From contig NZ_PYFT01000001.1 in assembly GCF_003023845.1 (NCBI RefSeq), positions 3,348,001 to 3,412,000 on the forward strand: a stretch of 64,000 nucleotides of DNA, read 5' to 3'. The translations under genes were made by a program, and so were the position numbers. Positions within the stretch are counted from its first letter, which is position 1. Each line of letters opens with the position of its first letter. The notes below the pieces were generated by a model. That model saw only the letters and a list, made by a program, of their open reading frames with translations. It was not told the origin of the DNA and did not search any database. Shown in pieces: positions 8,570 through 33,680 of the stretch. The stretch comes from Adhaeribacter arboris. Its GTDB lineage: Bacteria; Bacteroidota; Bacteroidia; Cytophagales; Hymenobacteraceae.

Positions 8570-9382
8570 CTACTTTTCGAACGCCCAGCATAGAAATTCA
8601 GGCATCATTTTCCCCCAGGTAGCTACGTCGTGTTTACCGCCGATTAATTCAACGTAGCGCACATCTTTCCCTTTCTGATAACCCTTTTGATACAGTTCGT
8701 AAATCAGGCTAGTGGAGTCATCAATAGAGTCAATAATACCGTTTTGATTACGATCCGATCTTTCATCCTGCGTTCCGGCCTGAAACCAGAACTTTAAACT
8801 TGGTTTGTCAGTACTTTTTCTGATTAGTTTATGCGCTATCCGGTGTTTATCGGGCTGGGCACTAGTAAATTCTTTACTTCGCCACCAGAAGGAGCCGGAA
8901 AAAGCGCCTATTTTCGAAAAAATACCGGCTTCGTGCCAGCCAATATCCAAAGCCGAGAGAGCTCCTAAAGAAAAGCCTGCTATAGTATAACTGGCAAAAG
9001 CCGTATTAGTAGTTTGGGTATAAATAGCCGGTAAAAGTTCCTGCGTAATAAATTGACGATACGCCAAAGCGGCACTGCCGCGGCCTTTAAAGTCCGGCTG
9101 TCCGGAAATACCATATTCCTGCAGCCGGTTGCCTGCTTTTATGCCTACCGTTACTATGGGTTGGATATCTTTTTTCTGATACATATTAAGCAAAATCTGA
9201 TCGTACTGCATCGCTGCCAAATCTTGCCCATCGTTTATTAAAAGCAAATGTAAGGGTTCCGTTACATCTGCTATTTTGGGAGTATAAACCACACAGGTTA
9301 CCTCCCGATCTAGAATAGCCGATTTTAATGTCCATTCATTTACAGAAATGCGTACATCGGCTTTGGTAAAGTTTACTAACAT
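8570..9382 (-). CDS. Alpha/beta-hydrolase of the putative esterase (EsterD/Fes) family
   Basis: Predicted cytoplasmic serine esterase of about 270 residues. The nucleophile elbow is GFSLGAL, with a later acidic segment (GTQDERSDRNQNGIID) and a C-terminal GGKHDVATWGKMMPEF that supplies the catalytic His. I choose the ATG at 9382 (MLVNFTKAD) because the 10 residues upstream in a longer reading from 9412 are low in family character. No signal peptide is seen. It is transcribed away from a second esterase 153 bases off that leads the ATP-grasp/YbdK cluster, so the two may act on the same product. Substrate unknown. Confidence 0.75.
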   Translation of the reverse strand: MLVNFTKADVRISVNEWTLKSAILDREVTCVVYTPKIADVTEPLHLLLINDGQDLAAMQYDQILLNMYQKKDIQPIVTVGIKAGNRLQEYGISGQPDFKGRGSAALAYRQFITQELLPAIYTQTTNTAFASYTIAGFSLGALSALDIGWHEAGIFSKIGAFSGSFWWRSKEFTSAQPDKHRIAHKLIRKSTDKPSLKFWFQAGTQDERSDRNQNGIIDSIDDSTSLIYELYQKGYQKGKDVRYVELIGGKHDVATWGKMMPEFLCWAFEK

Positions 9383-9535
9383 TATTATTTTAAGGTAATT
9401 AATAAAAAACAAAATTAACTAATTTAAACTTAATTAGTATAAGGGAATTGTACTTTATCCTTTTGCAGCGTTTCTAATTAAAAATATTATATTTCTTCAA
9501 CTAAATGCTTAGATAACCAGCAAGCAGAGTAATTT

Positions 9536-10240
9536 ATGAATGAACAATATCACAAATGGTATTCGCAGCAGCTAAATGCGGACATAGAAATGCTGGTTTT
9601 CGGCGACCGAGGGTATCCCGTTATTCTTTTCCCTACTTCTATGGGTAGGTATTACCAGAATAAAGATTTTAAATTAATTGAAAGTGCGGCTTGGTTTATT
9701 CAGGAAGGTCTGGTAAAAATTTACAGCATCGATTCTATTGATGCGTACAGTTGGTATAATAAAAATATTCACCCGGCCGACCGTGTCAGGAACCACATGC
9801 GTTACGATCAGATGCTCTACCACGAGTTGGTACCAAGGGCCCAGTACGAAACTGGCGTAGGTAAAGTATGCGTGGCGGGCTGTAGTTTCGGAGGGTACCA
9901 CGCCGCAAACTTTGCTTTTAAACATCCCGATAAAACCAGTCATTTATTTAGCATGAGTGGCGCTTTTGATATCCGGGACCAGTTGGATGGCTTTTACAAC
10001 GACGATGTGTATTACAATAACCCAGTAGATTTTGTATCACATATTTCCGATCCGGCTGTCTGGCAATTAAAAATAATTTTGGGTACTTCCGACCACGATA
10101 TTTGCAAAGATGCTAATATTAATTTATCCGGTATATTAGCCAGGAAAGAGATTCCGCATTGGTTGGATATCCGGCCAAATGCGGTGCATGACTGGCCTAT
10201 TTGGCGGGAAATGTTTCCGCATTATTTATCTTTAATCTAA
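9536..10240 (+). CDS. Esterase-like alpha/beta-hydrolase, first gene of the amide-ligase cluster
   Basis: Predicted serine hydrolase of 234 residues. The nucleophile elbow is VAGCSFGGYHAANFA, the acid is probably in LGTSDHDICKD, and the catalytic His in NAVHDWPIWREMFPHY. No export signal. It is followed after only 19 bases by an ATP-grasp gene, so the two are almost certainly co-transcribed. Hydrolases next to peptide-forming ligases commonly cleave or transfer an ester or peptide product, but the substrate here is unknown. A second, different esterase is divergent on the other side. Confidence 0.75.
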   Translation: MNEQYHKWYSQQLNADIEMLVFGDRGYPVILFPTSMGRYYQNKDFKLIESAAWFIQEGLVKIYSIDSIDAYSWYNKNIHPADRVRNHMRYDQMLYHELVPRAQYETGVGKVCVAGCSFGGYHAANFAFKHPDKTSHLFSMSGAFDIRDQLDGFYNDDVYYNNPVDFVSHISDPAVWQLKIILGTSDHDICKDANINLSGILARKEIPHWLDIRPNAVHDWPIWREMFPHYLSLI

Positions 10241-10259
10241 CACTTAAATATAAGCCACT

Positions 10260-11279
10260 ATGAAAAAAATAGGTATCCTTTTCGGGCAGGAAAACACTTT
10301 TCCGCAAGCCTTCGTGGATCGTATCAATAAAAAAGCCGTTAAAAATATAAGCGCGGAGTTCGTAATAATCGACAAAGTTATTCAAGGGGAGGCCTTAGGG
10401 TACGACGTAATTGTAGACCGGATTTCGCAGGATGTGCCTTTTTACCGGGCTACGCTTAAAAATGCGGCAATATCGGGCACCGCCGTAATCAATAACCCTT
10501 TTTGGTGGAGTGCCGACGAAAAGTTTTTTAATAATGCCTTAGCCGTAAAAATTGGGGTGCCGGTTCCCAAAACAGTTCTTCTACCTTCTAGGGATATGCC
10601 CGAAAATACGTCCGGCAATTCGTTCCGGAATCTGGAATATCCTTTGGACTGGGAAGGTATTTTTAATTACGTAGGTTTTCCGGCGTACATGAAGCCCTAC
10701 GATGGCGGTGGCTGGCGCGATGTGTACAAACTGCACGATCCGGAAGATTTTTTTGATAAATTCAACCAAACCCGGCAACTAGTAATGATGCTGCAGGAAG
10801 AAATTATTTTTGATGATTACTTCCGGTGCTATTGCGTGGGCGGACAACACGTCCGGATTATGCAGTATGAGCCCCGAAATCCGCATCACTTGCGCTACGA
10901 ACACGGCAAAGCGCCGGCGGCTAAAAAAATACTGAGCCAGGTAAAGGAATACGTTCTTAAACTAAACCAATACCTGGGCTATGATATGAATACGGTGGAA
11001 TTTGCCATTCGCGATGGGGTTCCTTATGCCATTGATTTTTGCAATCCGGCGCCGGATGCGGATTTGGCAAGTGTAGGCGAAGAAAACTTTGAATGGATTG
11101 TGGAAACAATGGCGACCTATGCCATTAATCGGGCGAAAGCTCATAAATCAGGTCAGGACAATTTAACCTGGGGGCAGTATATTAAATCCGCCAGTGCTAA
11201 AACATCCTTAATTCCAGCGCTAACACCGCAGGAAGCACCTAAAACATCTAGCTTAAAAACTAAGACCAGCTCGGAATAA
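10260..11279 (+). CDS. ATP-grasp ligase (RimK/glutathione-synthetase type)
   Basis: Predicted carboxylate-amine ligase that activates a carboxyl group as acyl-phosphate and joins it to an amine. ATP-grasp elements are in order over 339 residues: a pre-ATP-grasp start MKKIGILFGQENTFP, the nucleotide-binding MKPYDGGGWRDV with K145, the hinge LQEE (178-181), and magnesium-site residues in NTVEFAIRDGVPYAIDFCNP (E247, D259, N262). The last 30 residues are Ser/Thr/Lys-rich and look disordered. It follows the esterase by 19 bases and precedes a YbdK-type ligase by 164 bases. Substrates are not known; the gene is not a housekeeping ddl or gshB by motif. Confidence 0.75.
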   Translation: MKKIGILFGQENTFPQAFVDRINKKAVKNISAEFVIIDKVIQGEALGYDVIVDRISQDVPFYRATLKNAAISGTAVINNPFWWSADEKFFNNALAVKIGVPVPKTVLLPSRDMPENTSGNSFRNLEYPLDWEGIFNYVGFPAYMKPYDGGGWRDVYKLHDPEDFFDKFNQTRQLVMMLQEEIIFDDYFRCYCVGGQHVRIMQYEPRNPHHLRYEHGKAPAAKKILSQVKEYVLKLNQYLGYDMNTVEFAIRDGVPYAIDFCNPAPDADLASVGEENFEWIVETMATYAINRAKAHKSGQDNLTWGQYIKSASAKTSLIPALTPQEAPKTSSLKTKTSSE

Positions 11280-11443
11280 ATTTATCAAGCTTTATTATAT
11301 CTCTGATTTATCGGAACAAACCAACAAGTTCTAATTTTTCTATTTTGCGGGGATATGGATGGCTCTATTTCCTCATTTAGCGATTAAGTAAGCACCGAAA
11401 ATTTCAACTAAAGTAAGTATACTCCTTTACTAAATCCATACTC

Positions 11444-12547
11444 ATGAATAAATTCACCCTCGGCGTAGAAGAAGAGTTTATGGTAATTGACCCCGTAACG
11501 CGGGAACTCATTTCGCACGAACAAAAAATTGTAGAAGCCGCGCAAAGAGTGCACGAAGACCAGGTAAAAGCCGAAATGCACCAAGCCGTAGTAGAAGTAG
11601 GCACGCACATTTGTAAAAATACCGCCGAAGCCCGCACCGAAGTTACCAAATTAAGGAAAACAGTAGCCTCGCTGGCCGGAGAATTAGGTTTTCGGATTGG
11701 TGCAGCCGGCACGCATCCTTTTTCGCAGTGGGAGCATCAGCTTATTACCGATCATCCCCGGTACGTCGAAATTGTAGATGAATTGCAGGATGCCGCCCGC
11801 TCAAACCTGATTTTTGGTCTACATGTGCACGTAGGTTTTCAATCGCGGGAAATGGCTATCCATATTGCCAACCAAGTGCGCTATTTTCTGCCGCATATTT
11901 ATGCTTTATCCACGAATTCGCCATTTTGGGAAGGTCGCAATACCGGTTATAAATCTTATCGCACCAAGGTTTTTGATAAATTCCCGCGCACTGGCATTCC
12001 GGATTATTTCCAGAGTGTTGAAGAATACGATAATTACATAAAATTACTGGTTAAAACCAATTGCATTGACAACGCCAAAAAAATCTGGTGGGACGTGCGG
12101 GTGCATCCTTTTTTCGAAACCATTGAATTCCGAATCTGCGATTGTCCTATGCTAGTTGACGAAACCATGGCTTTTACCGCCTTGTTTCAAGCTCTTTGCG
12201 CGAAATTGTACAAAATACGATTACAAAACATGAAATTTATTACCTATAACCGGGCTTTAATCAACGAAAATAAATGGCGAGCCGCTCGTTACGGGATAGA
12301 TGGCAAGCTTATTGACTTTGGTAAGGAAGTAGAAGTAAACACCCGTTCGTTAATTTTAGAATTATTAGATTTTGTGGACGATGTAGTAGACGAACTAGGC
12401 AGCCGCGACGAAATCAACTACGTTACGCATATATTAGAACACGGTACCGGTGCCGACCGTCAGTTGCAAGTTTACCAAAAGAACCAAAACTTTATGGATG
12501 TGGTTGATTATATTACGTCTCAAACTTTAAAAGGAGTAGATGTTTAA
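11444..12547 (+). CDS. YbdK-type carboxylate-amine ligase (glutamate-cysteine ligase 2 family)
   Basis: ATP-dependent ligase of the glutamine-synthetase fold, GCS2/YbdK family, 367 residues as usual for the family. The N-terminal GVEEEFMVID (7-16), EMHQAVVEVGTH, and the metal-site GLHVHVGF (HVH at 127-129) are all present, followed by EFRICDCPM. Characterised members form gamma-glutamyl or other amide bonds between an amino acid and an amine, though the natural reaction of most is unknown. Its position between an ATP-grasp gene and a glutamine amidotransferase suggests it makes one bond of a small peptide-like metabolite. Confidence 0.85.
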   Translation: MNKFTLGVEEEFMVIDPVTRELISHEQKIVEAAQRVHEDQVKAEMHQAVVEVGTHICKNTAEARTEVTKLRKTVASLAGELGFRIGAAGTHPFSQWEHQLITDHPRYVEIVDELQDAARSNLIFGLHVHVGFQSREMAIHIANQVRYFLPHIYALSTNSPFWEGRNTGYKSYRTKVFDKFPRTGIPDYFQSVEEYDNYIKLLVKTNCIDNAKKIWWDVRVHPFFETIEFRICDCPMLVDETMAFTALFQALCAKLYKIRLQNMKFITYNRALINENKWRAARYGIDGKLIDFGKEVEVNTRSLILELLDFVDDVVDELGSRDEINYVTHILEHGTGADRQLQVYQKNQNFMDVVDYITSQTLKGVDV

Positions 12548-12674
12548 GTAATAGTTTATAATTAACCAGCTCTGCCATAGCAGATAAAAAACCCCGATTT
12601 AGCTAATAAGCTAAATTTTTAAATTTAATTTTTACCATGTAAGCATACCGCTTATTTTAATCAGAATAAAAACA

Positions 12675-13496
12675 GTGTCTATAAAAATTGCCATTCTTGA
12701 CCTTTACGCCGGCCATCCGAACCAAGGTATGCGTTGTATACAAGATATTTTACAACGTTACAGTCTCCGGAACCAAATTCCTCTGGTTTACCAGGTTTTT
12801 GATGTCCGAGCAAATAATGAAATCCCGAGTACTGATTTTGATATTTACATTTCCAGCGGCGGCCCCGGTAGTCCATTAGAAAGCGAAGGTTCTGTTTGGG
12901 AGAATAATTATTTTAATCTAATAGAAAAATTAGAGAATATTAATCGTAACCCTAACCGTGTCGACAAGAAACACGTTTTCTTTATTTGTCATTCGTTTCA
13001 GCTTATTTGCCGCAAATATCAACTAGGTAAAATATCCAAAAGAAAATCTACTTCCTTTGGTATATTCCCTATTCCTCGAACAGCCGACGGGCAATTCGAA
13101 GAGCTTTTTAACGGTTTAGGAGACCCTTTTTTTGCGGTAGACTCCCGCGATTGGCAAGTTATAGAGCCCAACGAAGAAAAGTTTGAAGCCATTGGCGCCA
13201 AATTGCTAGCCTTAGAAAAAGACCGTCCGCATGTAAATTTAGAACGTTGCCTTATGGCGATTCGCTTTACCGATTATTTCTTTGGTACTCAGTTCCATCC
13301 GGAAGCGGATCCGGTAGGCATGAAAGAACATTTACTGACTGAGGAAAAGAAAAATCAGATAATAGAAGTTCATGGAGCCGAAAAGTATTGGGAAATGCTA
13401 CAATTTCTGGATGATCCGGAAAAGCTGGAACGCACCCAAAACCAAATTATACCTGCTTTTTTAGACCAAGCCATTCACGCGTTGCAGGAGGCCTGA
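12675..13496 (+). CDS. Class I glutamine amidotransferase-like protein
   Basis: Triad-type glutaminase domain, 273 residues, that would release ammonia from glutamine for a partner enzyme. The oxyanion segment is ISSGGPGSP (59-67), the nucleophile is C105 in FFICHSFQL, and the His-Glu pair is in GTQFHPEAD, so the catalytic triad is complete. The start is a GTG (MSIKIAILD), which begins directly with the first beta strand. It is not fused to a synthetase, and trpG, guaA and carA partners are absent nearby. Two bases separate its TGA from the next ATG, so it is translationally coupled to the ATP-grasp-like protein, the likely acceptor of ammonia. Confidence 0.8.
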   Translation: MSIKIAILDLYAGHPNQGMRCIQDILQRYSLRNQIPLVYQVFDVRANNEIPSTDFDIYISSGGPGSPLESEGSVWENNYFNLIEKLENINRNPNRVDKKHVFFICHSFQLICRKYQLGKISKRKSTSFGIFPIPRTADGQFEELFNGLGDPFFAVDSRDWQVIEPNEEKFEAIGAKLLALEKDRPHVNLERCLMAIRFTDYFFGTQFHPEADPVGMKEHLLTEEKKNQIIEVHGAEKYWEMLQFLDDPEKLERTQNQIIPAFLDQAIHALQEA

Positions 13497-13498
13497 TA

Positions 13499-14686
13499 AT
13501 GATAAAAGAAACCAGGGAGGTGTATAATGCAGCTTTCACCGAAACTGCCTACCAGCAATTACTTGCCGAATTAAATAAAAATTTACCTCGCAAGATTGAG
13601 TTCCGGATTGCCGAAACGCCGGTGTTTTTACCATTGGCATTTAAAGAAAAGCTGGTACAAGCTGGTAATGAATTGGTAGCTACCATAAGAAAAGAGAATT
13701 TCAAACAGCTTACCGAAAGATCTATTCCGGATAACTGGCGGGTAGCTCACGAAAAAAGGCATCCGCATTTTTTAACGTTCGATTTTGCCGTTTGCCGCAA
13801 TGCGACGGGTGAGCTTACGCCTAAGTTAATTGAGTTACAAGGGTTTCCTTCGCTTTACGCGTTTCAGGCAGAACTAGCCGAACAGTTTCAAAAGCATTTT
13901 CCGGTAACGAGGGACTTTACACCTTACTTTTACCATTCCGATCAAAAAAGTTATTTTGAACTTCTCCGGCGAACTATTATTGGTACTAGTTTGCCGGAAG
14001 AGGTTATTTTATTGGATATTAATGCCGCCGAACAAAAAACAGCAGTAGATTTTTATCTTACCGCTAAGCATTTAGGTATAGCTATAGTGGCACTGCACGA
14101 ATTAAAACAAAGAGGAAGTCAATTTTATTATAGTCGCGATGGCATCGAGCATCCAATAAAAAAAATCTACAATCGACTTATTTTTGACGAAATAGAAGAC
14201 AAAAATATAGCTTTCCAAAACGTACCCGACTTATTAACTACGGATCAACTGGAATGGGTAACCCACCCCAATTGGTTTTACCGGATTAGTAAGTATACCA
14301 TGCCTTTTTTGGAGAGTGAATTTGTTCCGGCCACTTATTTTTTATCCGAATTAAAAACGATACCAGTAGACCTTCAAAATTACGTTCTCAAACCACTTTT
14401 TTCTTTTGCTGGTCAAGGGGTGTTAATTGATGTTTCCGAAGAAGATATAAAGGCTATTCCCGATCCGGAAAACTGGATATTACAGGAAAAAGTAATATAT
14501 GAACCCGCCATTGAAACGCCAGACGGATCAGTGAAATGTGAAATCCGGTTGATGTACTTATGGCCCGACGAGGAGGAAGAGCCTGTTTTAGCTATTTGTT
14601 TAGCTCGGTTAAGCCGTGGTAAAATGATTGGAGTGCGGTATAATAAAGATTTTAACTGGGTAGGCGGAACCGTTGGCTTGTTTTAA
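13499..14686 (+). CDS. Unassigned protein with ATP-grasp-like C-terminal half
   Basis: Conserved hypothetical of 395 residues that I do not recognise by name. The C-terminal part looks like an ATP-grasp core: YVLKPLFSFAGQGV (K298 and a Gly-containing loop 305-307), WILQEKV with E330 as hinge, then KCEIRLMYLW and the ending VRYNKDFNWVGGTVGLF. The N-terminal DFAVCRNATGELTPKLIELQ resembles, in layout, the acidic substrate segment of glutathionylspermidine-synthase-type ligases. It starts 2 bases after the glutaminase stop codon, so the pair probably work as an amidating or peptide-forming complex. The enzymatic assignment is inference. Confidence 0.6.
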   Translation: MIKETREVYNAAFTETAYQQLLAELNKNLPRKIEFRIAETPVFLPLAFKEKLVQAGNELVATIRKENFKQLTERSIPDNWRVAHEKRHPHFLTFDFAVCRNATGELTPKLIELQGFPSLYAFQAELAEQFQKHFPVTRDFTPYFYHSDQKSYFELLRRTIIGTSLPEEVILLDINAAEQKTAVDFYLTAKHLGIAIVALHELKQRGSQFYYSRDGIEHPIKKIYNRLIFDEIEDKNIAFQNVPDLLTTDQLEWVTHPNWFYRISKYTMPFLESEFVPATYFLSELKTIPVDLQNYVLKPLFSFAGQGVLIDVSEEDIKAIPDPENWILQEKVIYEPAIETPDGSVKCEIRLMYLWPDEEEEPVLAICLARLSRGKMIGVRYNKDFNWVGGTVGLF

Positions 14687-14778: not shown

Positions 14779-15621
14779 TTATTTATACGCCAGTGGAACC
14801 CGTTTTCTGACGCCTTTCAGCATTAGAGAATTCCTGCTTTTAGCCGATTCCAGATTCATGGAAACATGTATAGCGGGCACTCCATACAAATAAGTCGGCG
14901 CAAATACAATAGTAGGTTTACGTCCCCAACGGTTTCGGTGCGACAAGTAAGCCAAATGCGACGACAAGATACCAACTCCTGCTCCCGCAAACACATCTGA
15001 TTGCCAATGTTTATTATTTAACATGCGCAACGCTCCTACTCCCGTGGCAATAGTATAGGCGCCAATACCAAACCATTGGCTCCGGTGGCGCAGTTCCGAA
15101 TGAATAATAGAAGCAGCCAGAAAAGCGTGCGCCGTATGCCCGGAAGGAAAAGAATAGGAATTTTCGCCGTTCGGGCGTTCTTGTTTGGTAATACTTTTAA
15201 GTCCAAAAACCAGAACGGCATTAATGGCCTCTGCTTTTAGAATTAAAATTCCCGTATTTAAATAATCATGGTTTCCCTCAAATTGTAAAGTGTAGGCTAG
15301 AGCTAATTCCACAAAAGGAGCAAATATTAAATAATCATCTACTTTGGTTTTAAAGTTTGGAAAATGGCGCTGCAAATCTCTTTTTGCGTCGTAGCTACTG
15401 TAAATACCATGATCCTTCATGGTACTAACGCCATAGCCAATGAGTACCGCCGGCACAATAGATGCCCGGAAACCTTTAGATTTAAAAAAAGAAACTTTTG
15501 TGGGAGCAAGCGTAGAATCTTGGTATTTTTTTAAAGTATCTGTATCCTGCGCCTGCAGTTGCGTACTTAGTAAGCTTAAAAATAAAGACAAAGTCAACCA
15601 CCAATGAGTAACAGATTTCAT
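14779..15621 (-). CDS. PAP2-family phosphatase with signal peptide
   Basis: Predicted membrane-associated or periplasmic acid phosphatase of the PAP2 superfamily, 280 residues. A cleavable signal (MKSVTHWWLTLSLFLSLLS...) is followed by the three PAP2 motifs: KQERPNG, SYSFPSGHTAHAF, and HWQSDVFAGAGVG with the catalytic His. It lacks the many helices of undecaprenyl-diphosphatases, so it may dephosphorylate lipid phosphates in the outer or inner leaflet facing the periplasm. It is divergent from another PAP2 gene. The 269-bp space between them holds no gene. Confidence 0.8.
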   Translation of the reverse strand: MKSVTHWWLTLSLFLSLLSTQLQAQDTDTLKKYQDSTLAPTKVSFFKSKGFRASIVPAVLIGYGVSTMKDHGIYSSYDAKRDLQRHFPNFKTKVDDYLIFAPFVELALAYTLQFEGNHDYLNTGILILKAEAINAVLVFGLKSITKQERPNGENSYSFPSGHTAHAFLAASIIHSELRHRSQWFGIGAYTIATGVGALRMLNNKHWQSDVFAGAGVGILSSHLAYLSHRNRWGRKPTIVFAPTYLYGVPAIHVSMNLESAKSRNSLMLKGVRKRVPLAYK

Positions 15622-15890: not shown

Positions 15891-16676
15891 ATGTTATACA
15901 AAATACCTTTGCTTCTATCTAAAAAGATAAAGAAATTTTTTCAATCACCTTTTATGCAGCGGTTGAAGCAAAAGTACCCTTGGCTTTTTGCTTTTATCCG
16001 GAATAGGTTTAGAACGGGTGATTTCTTTGGGCTTCCCTTTACTATTTTGTTCACCTTAACCGTAATTAATTTATCTATGCTTTCGGAAATAGCCGAAAAC
16101 GTTGTTAATTCTCAAAAAGTTAAAAACCTAGACATACAAGTTTCAGGAGCATTTTTCAATCTTCGTACTCCTTTTATCAGCTTAGTATTATATTATTTTA
16201 CTCAGCTAGGCTCCGTTTACGGTGTAACTATAATTACCTTGTTAATGAGTATTCTTTTACTTTGGAAACAACGCTTATATCAGCTTTTAGCGCTTTTAAT
16301 TTCTGTTTTGGGTAGCGGCATTTCCATGCATTTTTCGAAGCTTTACTTTCACCGGGAACGACCACTTAACCTGGCTTATTATACCACCGAAAGTTCCTTT
16401 TCCTTCCCGAGCGGGCATTCTACCAGTGCTATGGCTTTGGTAGGAGTTTTATGTTATATTGCCTTATTAGAAATTAGAAGTAAAAGAATCCGCGCGTTTG
16501 TTTTTATTACGGGTATTTGCTATATTTTACTTATAGGATTTAGTCGGATTTACCTGGGGGTTCACTTTTTAACCGACGTAGCCGCCGGTTTTTTGCTGGG
16601 TTTTTTGTGGGTATTATTAGCGATAGGATTAATGGAATATTCGGCTCTTAAACAATTTAAACTATCCCGAAGTTAA
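15891..16676 (+). CDS. PAP2-family membrane phosphatase
   Basis: Polytopic PAP2 lipid phosphatase, 261 residues, with all canonical motifs: FHRERPL, SFSFPSGHSTSAMAL and SRIYLGVHFLTDVAAG, which carry the conserved Arg/Lys and two catalytic His. Several hydrophobic helices surround them. Likely substrates are undecaprenyl diphosphate or phosphatidylglycerol phosphate. Together with the divergent PAP2 gene it gives a pair of related enzymes of different membrane topology, which suggests non-identical roles. Confidence 0.85.
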   Translation: MLYKIPLLLSKKIKKFFQSPFMQRLKQKYPWLFAFIRNRFRTGDFFGLPFTILFTLTVINLSMLSEIAENVVNSQKVKNLDIQVSGAFFNLRTPFISLVLYYFTQLGSVYGVTIITLLMSILLLWKQRLYQLLALLISVLGSGISMHFSKLYFHRERPLNLAYYTTESSFSFPSGHSTSAMALVGVLCYIALLEIRSKRIRAFVFITGICYILLIGFSRIYLGVHFLTDVAAGFLLGFLWVLLAIGLMEYSALKQFKLSRS

Positions 16677-33309: not shown

Positions 33310-33452
33310 TTTACTTTAAGCTGCAGGTTATAAGTTACAGGTTGCAAGTTACCAATCACTGGATACTCGCTTCTAGCTGCCTTTAAACTGTTTCTTAAAT
33401 TAAGAAGTAAAGACCTATTGTCCTTACTAGGTATAATCATTTCAATTAAGTG

Positions 33453-33526
33453 TGGAGAATAACGGAGTCGAACCGTTGACCTCCTGCGTGCAAAGCAGGC
33501 GCTCTAGCCAGCTGAGCTAATCCCCC
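33453..33526 (-). tRNA. tRNA-Ala (anticodon TGC)
   Basis: A 74-base cloverleaf on the minus strand: acceptor GGGGGAT / ATTCTCC with discriminator A, D-arm TAGCTCAGCTGGCTAGAG, anticodon loop CTTTGCACG (TGC), and T-arm GGTTCGACTCC. No CCA is encoded. Standard second spacer tRNA. Confidence 0.95.
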
Positions 33527-33606
33527 TTTTTAAGTTAAGTTTTCAGGTATAAGGTAAACGTTTTGCAACTGGACACCTCTAACCGGCAATCTGTAACTTC
33601 TAAGTG

Positions 33607-33680
33607 TGGGCCTGCCTGGACTCGAACCAGGGACCTCTACATTATCAGTGTAGCGCTCTAACCACCTGAGCTACAAGCCC
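33607..33680 (-). tRNA. tRNA-Ile (anticodon GAT)
   Basis: A 74-base cloverleaf on the minus strand: acceptor GGGCTTG / CAGGCCC with discriminator A, D-arm TAGCTCAGGTGGTTAGAG, anticodon loop ACTGATAAT (GAT), and T-arm GGTTCGAGTCC. It is the first spacer tRNA after 16S. Confidence 0.95.

Follow-up and report, generated by a model that had tools for sequence, protein, structure and literature searches.

A block of six genes in the genome of Adhaeribacter arboris (Bacteroidota, family Hymenobacteraceae) encodes three predicted ATP-dependent C-N ligases, a class I glutamine-amidotransferase-fold enzyme and two alpha/beta-hydrolases, which almost certainly belong to one pathway. The window analysed here (the whole stretch of 64,000 nucleotides, positions 3,348,001 to 3,412,000 of contig NZ_PYFT01000001.1) is located at 3.35 Mb; the genome comprises two contigs and 7.25 Mb. 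Five of the genes follow one another on its forward strand: EST, a small alpha/beta-hydrolase (9536..10240), GRASP, a RimK/LysX-like ATP-grasp ligase (10260..11279), YBDK, a GCS2-fold carboxylate-amine ligase (11444..12547), GAT, the amidotransferase-fold Cys enzyme (12675..13496, with a GTG start), and LIG2, an ATP-grasp ligase with the fold of glutathione synthetase, glutathionylspermidine synthetase and YgiC (13499..14686). The sixth, the alpha/beta-hydrolase E0 (8570..9382, reverse strand), is divergent from this operon. An initial annotation had described the five open reading frames (ORFs) of the forward strand and the 2-base gap between GAT and LIG2; all were found where it had placed them, whereas the extent of the block had to be revised to six genes with E0, and to eight in three loci.

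Related bacteria tend to keep or lose these genes together, and the block therefore very probably makes or processes one small compound. The single pathway with three ATP-dependent C-N ligases that had been proposed is strongly supported by synteny, co-inheritance and folds, the ligase activity itself being predicted. Our full reading, to which we give a probability of about 0.5, is that of one co-inherited cytosolic pathway which leads, through the steps proposed below, to a short peptide or peptide amide without a non-ribosomal peptide synthetase (NRPS) or the ribosome. Taken by itself, the claim that the product is a small peptide or an amide is reasonably likely, and we take the product to be short and probably of gamma-glutamyl type. 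A cytosolic location is suggested by E0 and EST, since neither shows an obvious signal peptide when the sequences of the window are read.

Conserved gene order and co-inheritance

Sixty LIG2 loci, drawn from genomes selected for having LIG2, were read, and 58 were distinct once L078 and L079, whose contigs equal those of L044 and L046 in length, had been dropped as duplicates of these. The neighbourhood in related genomes, on which the initial annotation had made the idea of one pathway depend, is kept: the full order, with E0 divergent and EST, GRASP, YBDK, GAT and LIG2 in the same direction, occurs in 29 of the 58. Among the incomplete loci, 4 lack EST only, 5 lack E0 only and 6 begin at YBDK; those without YBDK consist of EST, GRASP, GAT and LIG2 (3 loci) or of GRASP, GAT and LIG2 (2), the shortest contain GAT and LIG2 (3) or LIG2 alone (4), and L058 and L088 present variant orders. 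Some loci stop at contig ends near LIG2 (e.g., L061, L086 and L087), and their missing genes may lie beyond. Gene by gene, GAT is found at 54 loci, YBDK at 46, GRASP at 45, EST at 39 and E0 at 35, the last two counts probably holding one cross-hit (L058) and one paralog (L088), respectively. The closest named relatives among the matches listed are three Rufibacter genomes, with 70% identity for LIG2.

The genes flanking the block vary between genera, and the block is therefore not a case of general synteny. In split genomes sub-blocks are found, namely E0 EST GRASP (L113) and EST GRASP YBDK (L112), each with one extra ORF inside, E0 EST (L114), E0 GRASP YBDK (L115), EST GRASP (L116), YBDK GAT (L137) and GRASP YBDK GAT (L138). 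Plasmid searches with LIG2, GRASP and GAT gave zero matches; the search with YBDK gave 61 records, all below 60% identity, and no similar block was present in the two neighbourhoods read (36.9 and 42.1%).

The class sample consisted of 295 genomes, of which 69 were checked for GAT and 68 for E0. LIG2 is present in 45 of the 295 (G139, with a 70-residue match containing two stops, was dropped). All 45 have GRASP (partial in G119 and G160), compared with 2 of the 250 others, for a count in which G035 (34% identity) and G223 (E=5e-4) were dropped and the partial matches of G119, G160 and G285 kept. YBDK occurs in 41 of the 45 against 1 of 250, after removal of G068, G090, G184 and G263 (E from 1.8e-6 to 6.6e-4). 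For GAT the figures are 45 of 45 against 1 of 24 others tested, and for E0, counted when full-length at 37% identity or more (matches at 35% or less were dropped, plus one at 38% over 109 residues), 37 of 45 against 1 of 23. For EST, counted at 45% identity or more, they are 34 of 45 against 1 of 250; EST-like esterases at E up to 0.001 occur in 69 of the 295 genomes, 34 of which had only matches below 45% and were dropped, and EST is thus specific only through the identity cut. The co-occurrence holds even where the genes are unlinked, and within one genus a genome with LIG2, GRASP, YBDK, EST, GAT and E0 (G058) stands beside one that has none of them, just weak esterase matches (G188).

Second paralogs of EST (28-36% identity) were rejected as members of the pathway, since only EST, E0 and GRASP recur in at least four of the loci read around unlinked members and such paralogs. 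Three loci of family f45, which is not among the LIG2 families (L098, L099 and L100), have an EST paralog (30-32%) adjoining a distant ATP-grasp of the c41 kind described below (24-26%), possibly a separate esterase/ligase pair. A GRASP homolog of 33-34% identity (L127:7131-8099), with a TonB receptor and a GMP synthase-like gene as neighbours, is present in G035, where LIG2 and GAT were not found.

The eight-gene version of the block contains c41, a third ATP-grasp (PF13535). In L088, L089, L128, L130, L132 and L133, c41 is grouped with an M17 aminopeptidase and with E0b, an esterase resembling E0; this module joins the block as an eight-gene run in L088, L089 and L179. Of the 40 genomes with c41 matches among the 295, 30 were dropped at 31% identity or less; the other 10 match at 45% or more, and each has LIG2. 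As 6 of the 8 LIG2 genomes without E0 carry c41, against 4 of the 37 with E0 (p=0.0006), it looks as if E0b replaced E0; for the loss of YBDK the figures are 3 of 4 against 7 of 41 (p=0.03). Both p-values ignore relatedness, and the link of c41 with either loss is suggestive.

In the wider phylum, a more sensitive search with a LIG2 profile detected the gene in 73 of 247 genomes, of which 41 lie outside the class, and 40 LIG2 places were read, 31 outside the class. GRASP, YBDK and LIG2 stand together in this order in 14 of these 31, with nothing between YBDK and LIG2 in 9, GAT in 3 and, in 2 (L151 and L154), a gene of about 340 residues that codes for an M29-type peptidase (E=5e-15 and 2e-14). 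GAT is present in 14 of the 41 out-of-class LIG2 genomes and missing from 27, including both with the M29 gene. GRASP was found in 28 of 30 LIG2 genomes tested (28 out-of-class and 2 in-class, 18 being picked because no GRASP lay near LIG2), and YBDK, known outside the class from loci only, in 24 of the 59 loci L144-L202, 11 of which are in-class. GRASP and LIG2 are the constant pair, which YBDK joins where the genes cluster, and GAT is optional.

Other genes accompany the block in particular lineages. An Amidohydro_3-type hydrolase lies between YBDK and GAT in one locus (L058:7159-8985) and one stands directly upstream of LIG2 in five out-of-class loci of families f85 and f88 (L147, L150, L155, L175 and L176; Pfam was run on three). 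Also in f85, a gene of 501-525 residues comes after GRASP (L185, L198, L199 and L200) or near it (L186), and the two tested (L185 and L199) are histidine ammonia-lyases above the hutH cut-off. In Mucilaginibacter-type loci (L034-L038, L047, L048, L050 and L051) a protein of 1112-1151 residues follows LIG2; the one tested, from L034, is a fusion of GH18, polysaccharide deacetylase and GT2 domains.

The predicted enzymes

LIG2 stands outside the Pfam and NCBIfam families, without any match at E up to 0.1. Its predicted model (predicted local distance difference test, pLDDT, 87; predicted template modelling score, pTM, 0.88) has over the whole chain the fold of eukaryote-type glutathione synthetase, glutathionylspermidine synthetase and YgiC according to Foldseek and VIA, the absence of a family from the VIA listing not excluding that family. 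The ATP-grasp fold, without which the initial annotation would have given up its proposal, is therefore found both in the model and by structure search; its wording of a "permissive ATP-grasp-like" protein holds for the ATP-grasp part, whereas the "permissive" protein of no known kind gives way to the glutathione synthetase/glutathionylspermidine synthetase fold. D95, E112, K265, K298 and E348 are invariant in 59 of 59 sequences, and the first four align with YgiC, YjfC and Gss, to which LIG2 is 17-19% identical; Q114, also present in 59 of 59, occupies the position of the asparagine in the E-x-N metal site. Thus K298, one of the two residues previously singled out, is conserved, whereas the other, E330, is not.

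GAT matches PF00117 (38.7 bits against a cut-off of 22.8), it carries the class I amidotransferase motifs SGGPGSP and QFHPE, and the triad C105/H208/E210 is conserved in 55 of 55 sequences. The Cys elbow (CHSFQ in the window) reads [FLA]-[IV]-C-[HY]-S-[FY]-Q in all 55, compared with GVCYGMQ in GuaA and GICLGHQ in CarA of E. coli: a serine replaces the glycine of E. coli GuaA, CarA and PuuD and the alanine of MetA, and the position two before the Cys is F or L (A in 1 of 55), its counterparts being glycine in GuaA and CarA, alanine in PuuD and phenylalanine in MetA. The canonical elbow of ammonia-donating enzymes, GxCxGxQ, is therefore absent, a substitution which is no proof of lost activity. 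Of the "intact class I glutaminase" called from C105 and the HPE motif, the triad stands, whereas the elbow departs from the canonical form and the glutaminase role is putative. No solved relative was found by single-sequence search at E up to 0.01; among PDB matches by profile the best is homoserine succinyltransferase (E=4e-4), whose H-S-R aligns with the invariant D156-S-R158 of GAT. Because of the elbow and this likeness, GAT could possibly be an ammonia donor, a gamma-glutamyl hydrolase or an acyltransferase.

The two remaining ligases are closer to known families, and the residues pointed out in them beforehand proved to be conserved: K145, E247 and N262 of GRASP in 46 of 46 sequences, and H127, V128 and H129 of YBDK in at least 46 of 47. 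In structure, the predicted GRASP model, which has moderate confidence, comes closest to RimK, and the score against TIGR00768 (E=4e-8, 32.9 bits) remains under the family cut-off of 143.4. Membership of the R2K ATP-grasp clade was rejected, PF18299 and PF14243 both being under cut-off (for PF18299, 13.8 bits against 26.2, with 18.6 as the best among five relatives). YBDK belongs to the PRK13515 equivalog, with 543.9 bits for NF010039 against a cut-off of 371, and its relatives of known structure are 1tt4 and the YbdK structure 1r8g.

Both hydrolases score above the PF00756 cut-off of 22, E0 (Fes-like) with 85 bits and EST with 28.7 bits, which agrees with the alpha/beta-hydrolase call made for EST. 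The nucleophile elbow of EST is GCSFGG with S117, and S117 and D219 are conserved in 40 of 40 sequences; E0 matches PRK10439 at E=1e-13, far under its cut-off. For E0, the ATG at 9382 is favoured over the mechanical TTG start at 9412, which leaves 153 bases (9383..9535) between the divergent starts of E0 and EST. Both promoters are presumed to lie in this region from its sequence, and a promoter/terminator scan there gave a signal no higher than in shuffles.

Directly downstream of the block are two PAP2-superfamily phosphatases on opposite strands, 14779-15621 (reverse) and 15891-16676 (forward). Farther away, a tRNA-Ala and tRNA-Ile pair (33452-33680, reverse) lies inside about 7 kb without ORFs of at least 120 residues, which is probably a ribosomal RNA operon.

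A putative pathway and its alternatives

The substrates, the order of the steps, the product, the cellular place and the role are those that we infer. YBDK would link an amine to the side-chain carboxylate of glutamate or of a comparable acid; LIG2 would convert the carboxylate of the YBDK product into an acyl phosphate and join it to a second amine or amino acid; and GRASP would, in a RimK-like manner, add a further residue onto a carboxylate, its basic tail serving in most Bacteroidia sequences read to keep the enzyme near a polyanion. The steps of YBDK and LIG2 would recall two steps of glutathione-type synthesis, with hydrolases then trimming or recycling: E0 and EST may act on an intermediate by hydrolysing an ester, a thioester or an amide in it, and GAT would more likely cut an amide, for example by removal of a gamma-glutamyl cap or recycling of the product, than give ammonia to LIG2. 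We put a hydrolase role for GAT at about even odds and find it clearly likelier than ammonia supply, since GAT is optional outside the class and a peptidase takes its position in two genomes. Finding an M29-type peptidase where other genomes encode a class I GAT is a rare clue to the possible function of an orphan GAT. A bolder extension, which we regard as speculative and doubtful, would see here a phylum-wide intracellular peptide cofactor or signal of Bacteroidota, built by a core of unrelated ligases (RimK-like, YbdK and the new family with the fold of glutathione synthetase), trimmed or recycled by interchangeable hydrolases (class I GAT, M29, M17 and esterases) and tied in its synthesis to nucleic acid or ribosomes by GRASP tails of AT-hook-like or helix-hairpin-helix (HhH) type.

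Several observations weigh against the pathway as proposed. Kinship among the genomes inflates the co-occurrence counts, which carry no tree-based correction. Four of the 45 in-class LIG2 genomes have no YBDK, and two of the 30 LIG2 genomes tested for GRASP yielded none (G409 and G479). Conversely, one genome has GRASP, YBDK, EST and GAT and no LIG2 (G118, 97% complete, in 220 contigs), and another has only a partial GRASP and E0 (G285, 73% complete). An alignment of LIG2 with YgiC, YjfC and Gss by hhalign reached a probability of 11.6%, with thin profiles of 17 and 3 rows, and the model behind the RimK likeness of GRASP is, as said, of moderate confidence. The other points concern the closeness of GAT and LIG2: the gap between them is at most 30 bases in 32 of 54 loci, 15 of which overlap by 1 or 4 bases (with script-chosen starts); GAT is found elsewhere in all four class genomes with LIG2 alone at the locus; and it is likewise elsewhere in 7 of the 9 out-of-class genomes with nothing between YBDK and LIG2 (G295 and G299 being without it), so that adjacency alone understates GAT.

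These last points favour an alternative which we consider unlikely, although it survives best: like CarA/CarB, GAT and LIG2 may work as a glutamine-dependent amide synthetase, in which GAT would hydrolyse glutamine and LIG2 would use the ammonia to convert a peptide carboxylate into a carboxamide; the amidated product would be osmolyte-like, as in the case of N-acetylglutaminylglutamine amide (NAGGN). In 54 of the 58 distinct loci GAT is encoded upstream of LIG2 at a distance of at most 530 bases; it is kept in all 4 LIG2 genomes of the class without YBDK and has the QFHPE and SGGPGSP motifs, and the NAGGN operon, with its asparagine synthase, GNAT protein and peptidase, is a precedent (PMC8070244). 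The alternative has against it the 27 of 41 out-of-class LIG2 genomes in which GAT is missing, the peptidase found in its place in two of them, and an elbow which is not GxCxGxQ. Moreover, the characterised relatives of LIG2 use, to our knowledge, amines or amino acids and not ammonia.

The tail of GRASP, disordered and basic in the window (about residues 305-339), raises the improbable alternative that a macromolecule of the ribosome, or one associated with nucleic acid, is modified by GRASP just as ribosomal protein S6 is by RimK, the other enzymes making or removing the attached unit. RimK is indeed its best structural match; the tail has at least 25 residues in 37 of 46 sequences of the class, 36 of these with a net charge of +3 or more; under a criterion drawn up once the tails were already known, the last 40 residues are rich in K, A, P and R in 16 of 45 GRASP sequences compared with 0 of the 671 other ORFs at these loci; and RGRP/RGRK arrays occur in L044, L046 and L072, as does a match to HHH_5 below cut-off (E=0.001) in L043. 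The tail is, however, shorter than 25 residues in 9 of 46 sequences and acidic in L043, and a basic tail can bind any polyanion, an acidic product included.

Very improbable is a glutathione-like low-molecular-weight thiol as the product of the block. YBDK belongs to the gamma-glutamyl ligase superfamily, LIG2 has the glutathione synthetase fold and PF00756 includes thiol-ester hydrolases; against this, BshC of the bacillithiol pathway passes its cut-off in every one of the 45 in-class LIG2 genomes and in 20 of the 22 others tested, and because of this distribution there is no complementarity with bacillithiol, whose replacement by the product of the block was rejected, although a second thiol could exist beside it. 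Finally, unrelated neighbours held by general synteny, for which adjacency alone would speak, have a negligible chance, given that flanking genes differ, that broken-up sub-blocks still co-occur and that G058 and G188, of one genus, have all or none of the genes.

Relation to known systems

Pathways made of stand-alone ligases are already known, and the LIG2 family is without a Pfam or NCBIfam name, with no product known to us; if the pathway is true, the ligases of glutathione synthetase fold would gain a new family. The comparative genomics of amidoligases by Iyer et al. in 2009 reportedly lists neighbourhoods of ATP-grasp, GCS2-type and GAT genes and may mention this set. No description of the six-gene set was found in titles and the beginnings of abstracts, in a search that left most subscription journals outside. 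The set is made of clear enzyme classes, with no exporter lying between the six genes in the window, and LIG2 carriers include the environmental genera Rufibacter, Mucilaginibacter and Pedobacter.

From the accessible parts of their sources, several systems can be compared. In pseudouridimycin synthesis the carboxylate-amine ligases PumK and PumM work in turn (PMC6586884), in a nucleoside antibiotic cluster which differs by its transporters and tailoring enzymes and whose gene table, as far as available, has no GAT or ligase of glutathione synthetase fold. A phosphonate cluster of onion pathogens has ATP-grasp and carboxylate-amine ligase genes (PMC8417944), methylofuran is made by a pathway of stand-alone ligases (PMC8141765), and neighbourhoods of R2K ATP-grasps have been described (PMC4431377). 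The NAGGN operon is likewise a small operon of an amidotransferase, a ligase and a peptidase for a peptide amide (PMC8070244); its amidotransferase is of asparagine synthase type and is accompanied by a GNAT protein, neither of which is in the block of the window. Membership of the NAGGN system was rejected, as no asparagine-synthase-type amidotransferase or GNAT/ATP-grasp protein is among the six products of the block, to which the search was confined.

The fungal E-64 pathway offers the ligase Cp1B (9cjn), which falls in the same fold group as LIG2 and belongs to an NRPS-independent pathway of stand-alone amide ligases; its partners, in the part of the source available, are an oxygenase and other stand-alone ligases, with no YBDK, RimK-like ligase or GAT named there (PMC12568646). 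Compared with the RimK, LysX, ArgX and MyfB ATP-grasp ligases, GRASP stands apart by a TIGR00768 score far under the cut-off and by its basic tail, which is variable. Likewise, LIG2 differs from eukaryote-type glutathione synthetase, GspSA and YgiC/YjfC in having no amidase domain and in usually standing beside a class I GAT.

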